Part shown: in pieces, positions 383 through 2,735 of the stretch
Numbering within the stretch: the stretch's first letter is position 1
Layout: each line of letters starts with the position of its first letter
Assembly (NCBI GenBank): GCA_035541455.1
Contig: DATKNH010000146.1
Span: 1-33,151, forward strand
Source: Syntrophorhabdales bacterium
Lineage (GTDB): Bacteria > Desulfobacterota > Syntrophorhabdia > Syntrophorhabdales > WCHB1-27
DNA length: 33,151 nt
Direction: 5' to 3'
Notes under the pieces: generated by a model
Told to the model about the DNA's origin: nothing
The model's input: the letters and a program-made list of their open reading frames with translations, nothing else
Databases searched by the model: none
Position numbers and translations under genes: made by a program

Positions 383-658
383 GTGAAGATTATTACTTTA
401 CTGCTCGCAGTTACGCTTGGCATGGTCATCGTTGCTTGTGCTTCTAGTTCTCTCCCGACCCAGGTGAGAAAAATCGGAGATAACCAATATGAAGTCTTTG
501 CCAAGAGTAGGTCGATTGGAAAGGACTCAGAGCTTGTGAGTGACTGGAATACGAAAGCCAGGGAAACTTGTGGCGGAGATTTTGATGTTATTAGTCGCAA
601 CTTCAATTCACAGACCCAAGGCTCTTCTACTATGACGGGTGTAATTTCTTGTAAGTAA
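383..658 (+). CDS. Small predicted lipoprotein, unknown function
   Basis: This 91-residue protein starts at a GTG with GGAGG at 371-375, seven bases upstream. The N-terminus (MK, then a hydrophobic run) ends in a lipobox-like I-V-A-C with the lipidated Cys at residue 19. Export and lipid anchoring in the outer or inner membrane are therefore likely. The mature part is about 70 residues and carries two more cysteines (near residues 63 and 90) that could form a disulfide. The fold is not recognised. The W..KA.E.C.G.FDVIS pattern recalls small YecR-like enterobacterial lipoproteins, but the similarity is too weak to name. It lies between the transposase and the broken Argonaute, and nothing links it to either. 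Confidence 0.72.
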   Translation: MKIITLLLAVTLGMVIVACASSSLPTQVRKIGDNQYEVFAKSRSIGKDSELVSDWNTKARETCGGDFDVISRNFNSQTQGSSTMTGVISCK

Positions 659-701: not shown

Positions 702-767
702 CTGCTTGACTTGCACGGCGGTTTGGTGAAGAAGCAAAGTCGCGTTCAGCCGTGCGGGAGGGCACAA

Positions 768-2196
768 GTGAGCGATAGAGCATATATGCTCGCAGAACAC
801 ACGATCCTGCCTGAACCATCCTTGCTATTTGCCGATGGTCACCGGGATATACACCCGCTACGAGGCCTCACGGACGCTGGCCCTTACAGCTCCGATCTCC
901 ATTATCCAGCCTCGGTGAAAATAGCGTACTTCGCCCCTCGTGAGTCATTCTCGGCCCTGGATGGAATGATGGAATAATGTCAGAACTAAATACCACTGCT
1001 ACGCTTAAAGAGGCCACAAACTACTACCCGGTGTACAACGGTTTCGATAAGGTCTTCCGTGTTCCCATTGTAACACCGAATACAAATCTGAAATGGGAGG
1101 CACCTCCCGAGTGCCACAAGCTCGCCCAATCAAAGGACGGTCAGTCCCTCATTGCTTGCATTCTCGAGTCACTTAAGGGGCTTCTGCTTCAACGAACTTC
1201 CTTTGATGTGCTATTGATGTATCTACCGGACATCTGGAAGGACTGTTTCGAGTATGAAGGGTTTGATCTTCATGATGGAATCAAAGCAAAGCTGGCACGT
1301 TTGAGTGTGCCAATCCAGATAGTCAATGACACGTCTTTGAATCGCACATGCAGGGCAAATGTAATGTGGGGCATGAGCGTGGCGCTCTATGCAAAAGCGG
1401 GTGACATCCCTTGGAAGCTAGCCGTATTCGACAAGGACGAGGCGTGTATCGGGTTAAGTTATGCAATAAAAAAACACCCTGATGGCAATGACTACACTAC
1501 CTGTTGTAGTCAAGTCTTCGACCCTGATGGTAGCGGGTTCGAATTCGTTGCATACGATACGCGCGAATTCTCAACTGATCGAAAAGGTAATCCGTATCTC
1601 AGCTATCAAGAGATGCAATCTGTATTGTCCCGGACGCTGCTCGTCTATCAGCGTGGCCATAGCGGACGCATAGCACGCGAAATTTTCATTCACAAGACTT
1701 CCCATTTTACTGAAGAGGAAATTCAGGGAACGCTGGATGCCTTCGGAGTCAAAACCGAAATTGAAATGGTACAGGTTGTCCGTAGAAATAACTGGTACGG
1801 TGTAAAACTTAATCCCTACGTCAAAGGTAAGGTATTACGCCGACAAATTACCCGGTAGATAGAGGTTTGTACCAGCCACTCACAGAGAGTGAATGCCTGC
1901 TCTGGACACAGGGTACGGTGATGTCAGTCAATCCGATCAATCTGAATCAACCGGTTTTCAAGGAGGGAGGATTGAAACCTCTGCCTGACCCGATAATATT
2001 GCGTCGGTTTTCGGGAGATGGCGGTTGGTATGATACTTGCCTGACTATCCTTGGGTTTACGAAAGTCGACTGGAACAACAACACACTCTACAAGACACTC
2101 CCCGTCACACTCGTTTATTCTCAGGTATTCGCTGAAGTGATAAAGCAAGCGCCTGACCTAGTCAACGATGTTTACGATTGCCGTTTCTTCATGTAA
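768..2196 (+). pseudogene. Short prokaryotic Argonaute (MID-PIWI), split by two frameshifts
   Basis: Three fragments in three frames add up to one short pAgo of about 475 residues. Fragment A (768-977) starts at a GTG with GGGAGGG five bases upstream and carries ILPEPSLLF and LRGLTDAGPY, typical of the MID start. Fragment B (977-1858) has the MID segment [16 protein letters not shown] and the PIWI segments [53 protein letters not shown] and IHKTSHF. Fragment C (about 1831-2196) continues as YPVDRGL, LLWTQG, VDWNNN, LPVTLVYS and ends in RFFM. The first break is a TAATG stop/start overlap at 975-979; the second falls between about 1825 and 1840. Both look like single-base losses. IGLSY stands where active PIWI domains have IGIDV, so the catalytic Asp is absent, as in short pAgos, which bind guide and target and signal through a partner. 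No APAZ, TIR or SIR2 partner gene is adjacent. A sequencing indel could explain one or both breaks. Confidence 0.85.
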
Positions 2197-2363: not shown

Positions 2364-2735
2364 CAGACGGGGTAGACTGTAAGCCGGGTTCTGTTGCTGA
2401 AGTGATCAGCCTGTAGCCATTTCTCTTGGACTCAGATTACTCTGAGCCTCTTGCGGCCTACCTGGGTTAAGGGACGGGCCATCCCCGCCGCAGATAACTG
2501 CAGCCCCCTTTTTGGCCTTGCGTCGGGTGGGGTTTGCAAAGCCATTCAGTCTCCTGAATGCTGGTGGGCTCTTACCCCGCCTTTTCACCCTTACCCCGCA
2601 TGAAGCGAGGCGGTATGCTTTCTGTTGTACTTTCCTTAGGGTTTCCCCCAGTCCCCGTTAGGGACCACCCTGCCCTGCGACGCCCGGACTTTCCTCAGGG
2701 ATTGCTCCCCGCGGCTACACGTCTACCCCGGCTGC
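2364..2735 (-). ncRNA. rnpB: RNase P RNA (bacterial type)
   Basis: This is the catalytic RNA that trims 5' leaders from pre-tRNAs. Read on the minus strand, the 5' part has GAGGAAAGTCCGGGC and GGGCAGGGTG, and the 3' part has ACAGAACCCGGCTTACAGTC. These are the universally conserved P4-region segments. The ends were set by the P1 helix, which pairs CAGCCGGGGTAGAC (minus strand, 2734-2721) with GTCTACCCCGTCTG (2377-2364) with one mismatch. The length of about 370 nt fits an A-type RNA. The 5' P1 strand overlaps the last codons of the upstream RNase H-like gene. No clear terminator is seen below 2364. Confidence 0.96.

Follow-up and report, generated by a model that had tools for sequence, protein, structure and literature searches.

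A frame-broken short Argonaute gene beside RNase P as a probable remnant of a SPARSA operon

The DNA analysed here, a stretch of 33,151 nt from a Syntrophorhabdales bacterium (the window), carries near one end three adjacent reading frames resembling a short prokaryotic Argonaute (pAgo). The original prediction offered two readings: a defence system has been lost here, or a standalone pAgo has its frame affected by sequence errors. Does the locus represent a dying system, a new type of system or an artefact? We consider it highly probable that it is a decayed SPARSA operon which has lost both the NADase partner and the pAgo reading frame, and which was probably acquired horizontally beside the RNase P gene. 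The source assembly is a draft of 173 contigs (genome size 3.9 Mb, 97% complete, ~3% missing); the contig begins 767 bp before the pAgo, and the upstream view is limited to this stretch.

Three pAgo fragments and two frame breaks

The fragments were searched one by one with phmmer against solved structures and with the PADLOC pAgo_I model; the translated parts used as queries were 768-974 (A), 977-1855 (B) and 1831-2193 (C). The reference was the 473-aa 'Piwi domain protein' of PDB 8in8 (chain C), an entry whose second chain type is a Sir2 protein. Fragment A (768-977, plus strand as are B and C) runs from a GTG start to a TAA at 975-977 and matches MID residues 1-67 (E = 4.9e-15). Fragment B (977-1858, ATG start, TAG stop) covers the rest of MID and the first half of PIWI, residues 70-346 (E = 4.7e-128). 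Fragment C (1831-2196), whose frame is open from 1831 and closed by a TAA at 2194-2196, is the C-terminal PIWI part, residues 354-473 (E = 3e-60); its protein ends in RFFM, as had been predicted. Together the fragments align, in order, to 464 of the 473 reference residues, which bears out the proposal that the three frames belong to one MID-PIWI protein. A search against short pAgo families agreed: the pAgo_I profile was matched by A, B and C in three consecutive stretches (4-65, 64-341 and 344-457). A Pfam search of the three fragments gave no pAgo match, so the assignment would have been missed with Pfam alone. In sum the fragments have the architecture of a short pAgo, MID and PIWI only, ~470 aa.

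The fragments align end to end with the pAgo of the Geobacter sulfurreducens SPARSA system (GsSir2/pAgo; PDB 8in8, 8k87, 8k88 and others), with identities of 48% (A), 67% (B) and 72% (C), and share with it the residues of the guide 5'-end pocket and the C-terminal FM. SPARTA (TIR-APAZ) and SPARDA (DNase-APAZ) are likewise MID-PIWI short pAgos acting with an APAZ effector; solved short pAgos of these other kinds are far more distant in sequence (E of about 6e-8 to 4e-13 with fragment B), and the nearest clade for the window pAgo is that of Sir2-APAZ.

Both frame breaks had been described as single-base losses. For the first break this proved wrong. From the GPY motif to the next YY motif there are 143 nt in the window and exactly 135 nt in every one of the 22 relatives measured, and the excess is a perfect 8-bp tandem duplication, GATGGAAT GATGGAAT, at 960-975 on the plus strand. 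No other tandem duplication whose unit is 7-12 bp long exists in the 33-kb window, so a real mutation is more probable here than a miscalled base; replication slippage typically leaves such a doubled 8-mer, and base-calling does not usually do so. The second break does amount to a net −1 change, located at a 5-bp tandem repeat, AAGGTAAGGTA (1824-1834, plus strand), in a loop that differs in length between relatives. The repeat does not settle the cause of this break, since eight such 5-bp repeats exist in the window.

Could assembly or sequencing errors have split an intact pAgo, a whole gene standing alone with no Sir2-APAZ partner? There are only two breaks, the key residues are conserved and the assembly is a draft, all of which would suit such an explanation. 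Against it stand the nature of the first break, where a base-call error is unlikely, and the remaining window genes, which match their families over the full length and so argue against a general frame error. Together with the evidence on the partner given below, these observations leave the error explanation with a slim chance.

The Sir2-APAZ partner in relatives and in the window genome

SPARSA was described from G. sulfurreducens as a heterodimer in which guide RNA and target DNA are held by pAgo and APAZ; guide-target pairing is required for the NADase activity of Sir2, and the structure of the complex shows the PIWI domain as the main contact of the Sir2 domain, its linker and APAZ (PMC10781750). 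A scan of a genome collection for relatives of the window pAgo produced 25 loci, 51-70% identical to it among those keeping most of fragment B. Of the near-full-length relatives, 21 had their upstream flank covered; in each of these a Sir2-APAZ ORF of 579-616 aa abuts or overlaps the pAgo start, and none of them is without the partner. A Sir2 signature (e.g. MWFLGAGTSR) lies near the start of the partner ORF in the 21 relatives; four partners tested matched PADLOC Aga_SIR2, each with E = 3e-180 or better, and the solved Geobacter Sir2 protein has a near-identical counterpart in the partner at one locus (L010). By its nearest relatives and by the tree, the window pAgo falls in the clade associated with Sir2-APAZ. 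Among plasmids (76 records) the nearest homologue, from Bradyrhizobium, is 53% identical and has a SIR2 gene directly upstream; no homologues were found in viral contigs and phages. A literature search for decayed SPARSA or orphan short pAgos returned nothing specific.

The absence of an APAZ partner, noted in the original prediction, extends beyond the window. In the window itself a tblastn search for Sir2-APAZ pieces gave only noise. Neither a Sir2-APAZ protein nor the PADLOC family had a convincing match in the whole 97%-complete genome, and the APAZ-only profile found nothing there; in control genomes the PADLOC family and the APAZ profile detected their targets with E from 1e-101 to 1e-207. 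The best match to the partner family in the genome, on contig C116 (E = 0.011, 15 bits), was too weak to be accepted as the partner.

What may be left of the partner gene is its end. A frame reading KVAFSRAGGHK, about 11 codons, is closed by a TGA at 769-771 that overlaps the GTG start of the pAgo (736-771, plus strand). Partner tails in relatives look similar (e.g. TRTAYSRGG), and in nearly all of them the alanine codon lies roughly 16-26 nt from the pAgo start; in the window this distance is 26 nt. With a position-specific score built on the tails of relatives, the window segment ranks 14th among 51,036 stop-free octapeptides, for an estimated p of ~0.003-0.005 by position, counting ~11-16 positions. 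KVAFSRAGGHK is probably what remains of the partner's tail. It supports a former operon and is not proof of one, because a copy of a 32-nt direct repeat ends right beside it; the segment is short, abuts the repeat and may be a coincidence.

The operon kept by relatives and the probable tail at the right frame and spacing argue for a former operon and not for a stand-alone form, and both count against an intact pAgo split by errors. A stand-alone short pAgo, intact and with no APAZ partner, is moreover not what the window holds, as the frame is broken. Of the two readings offered originally, a lost defence system is the better one.

Flanks, repeats and acquisition

The expected place of the Sir2-APAZ gene is taken by a 91-aa lipoprotein-like ORF (383-658, plus strand) for which a family search gave no match. 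This ORF is bracketed by two copies of a 32-nt imperfect direct repeat (261-292 and 706-737, plus strand), the second being the copy that abuts the probable tail. The copies are 75% identical, and none of 300 shuffled versions of the region scored as high as the pair; no further copies were found in the genome. The bracketed segment is possibly a small mobile cassette, and the repeat pair may mark a rearrangement that replaced the Sir2-APAZ gene. On the minus strand (1-81) a putative IS110-family transposase gene begins and is cut off by the contig end after 27 codons; the assignment is weak, with only 27 aa to judge by, and Pfam gave no match to them. Four IS110-domain matches occur on other contigs of the same genome.

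These features allow a different history, in which the IS110-like element or the 32-nt-repeat cassette was inserted in the 3' end of the Sir2-APAZ gene and displaced the rest of it off the contig. The contig does end within the IS110-like gene, the repeats are in place at 261 and 706, and the probable Sir2 tail remains at 736-771. Searches whose positive controls worked found no Sir2-APAZ or APAZ piece elsewhere among the contigs of the 97%-complete genome, and the pAgo would be frame-broken even so. We regard displacement as improbable.

On the other side of the pAgo, at 2285-2329, between it and RNase P, are two 21-nt copies of TGCATGACTTTATTT(C/G)ACGCG spaced 24 nt apart. They may be an insertion-sequence end; a search of the genome found no additional copies of the 21-nt sequence, nor near-identical copies of the flank segments 1-380 and 2190-2370. 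The class A RNase P RNA gene (2364-2730, minus strand) is the conserved flank: alignment with related genomes begins only there (2360-2369). No close pAgo homologue is present in 148 related genomes, two of which have only remote ones (28-29% identity). Because the homology shared with related genomes reaches no further than RNase P, the pAgo region counts as lineage-specific and was probably acquired; for the same reason an empty-site comparison yields no insertion boundary left of 2360.

State and course of the decay

The residues that contact guide and target in G. sulfurreducens pAgo are kept in the window. D164, H166, Q181, N184, R190, N195 and Y359, named for GsAgo in PMC10781750, are identical, as is K170, checked additionally; K70 of the same paper corresponds to a conserved E in the numbering used here. 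At 131 columns invariant in the 21 relatives the window departs 8 times (0-5 for each relative in turn), a small excess that is weak evidence alone, and its branch in the tree is long and not extreme. As the guide-pocket residues survive, the data fit a loss of constraint that is not old. In principle the conserved pocket could reflect either recent decay or persisting selection.

Conservation of these residues would also suit a pAgo that works in split form, its three parts being made separately and reassembled without Sir2-APAZ. As predicted, the first break creates a TAATG overlap between the stop of A and the start of B (975-979), and a candidate TTG start for C lies at 1867, 8 nt beyond the stop of B. 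Restart at TAATG could in principle allow product B to be made; the predicted product would be without the 68 N-terminal MID residues and ~125 C-terminal PIWI residues. No relative shows the same split with both breaks, the first break looks like a fresh slippage duplication, and an APAZ protein that would complete the channel is absent. A working split pAgo is accordingly very improbable, as is the broader case in which all three frames are translated and reassembled, either acting as a split pAgo without Sir2-APAZ or interfering with another nucleic-acid-guided defence; we rank both below assembly error and displacement.

Returning to the decayed operon, we infer the following order of events. 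A SPARSA operon, Sir2-APAZ plus short pAgo, would have arrived beside the RNase P gene, probably by horizontal transfer. While the system worked, guide RNA and target DNA in the pAgo-APAZ channel would have turned on the Sir2 NADase, emptying the cell of NAD+ and aborting phage infection. Nearly all of the Sir2-APAZ gene would then have been deleted or replaced, with no more than its final ~11 codons left ahead of the pAgo start, and the pAgo frame would have been broken by the 8-bp tandem duplication and by the second, net −1 change. With no NADase there would be no effector, and with no intact MID-PIWI no guide-target sensor. Function is unlikely because Sir2, its linker and APAZ bind mainly PIWI and that partner is absent; most likely the remnant does nothing.

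Compared with the G. sulfurreducens system, then, the window has lost Sir2-APAZ save for a possible 11-codon tail, and its pAgo frame is broken twice. Decayed pAgos also occur elsewhere in the family. In the Bradyrhizobium niftali SPARSA locus (L022, 5800-7205) the pAgo frame is broken once, in the region of the variable loop (reference about 355-379), as in the window; unlike in the window, the Sir2-APAZ gene is still intact. Two Proteobacteria MAGs have a decayed pAgo of the same family and, like the window, no Sir2 partner (L027, 2475-2738; L028, 4861-5124), whereas their pAgo is PIWI-only, with about 70-90 codons recognisable; we count them as one event because their DNA is 99% identical over kilobases. 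In a Nitrospirales SPARSA locus (L025, 2470-2540) no start codon of the pAgo frame was found around the place where it usually lies, and the 5' end of this pAgo may be broken too.

Since two defining features of SPARSA, the same-operon partner and an intact pAgo frame, are missing, the locus should be filed as a remnant and neither as a SPARSA system nor as a stand-alone short pAgo. Its biology is ordinary, a relic of a known anti-virus gene pair and not a new stand-alone Argonaute. The locus illustrates the death of an abortive-infection system: the effector that destroys NAD is lost, while the half that binds guides is still there, its breaks recent. It is also a warning that a lone short pAgo should not be taken for a new partner-free system; here the operon rule in relatives and the probable partner tail point to loss instead.
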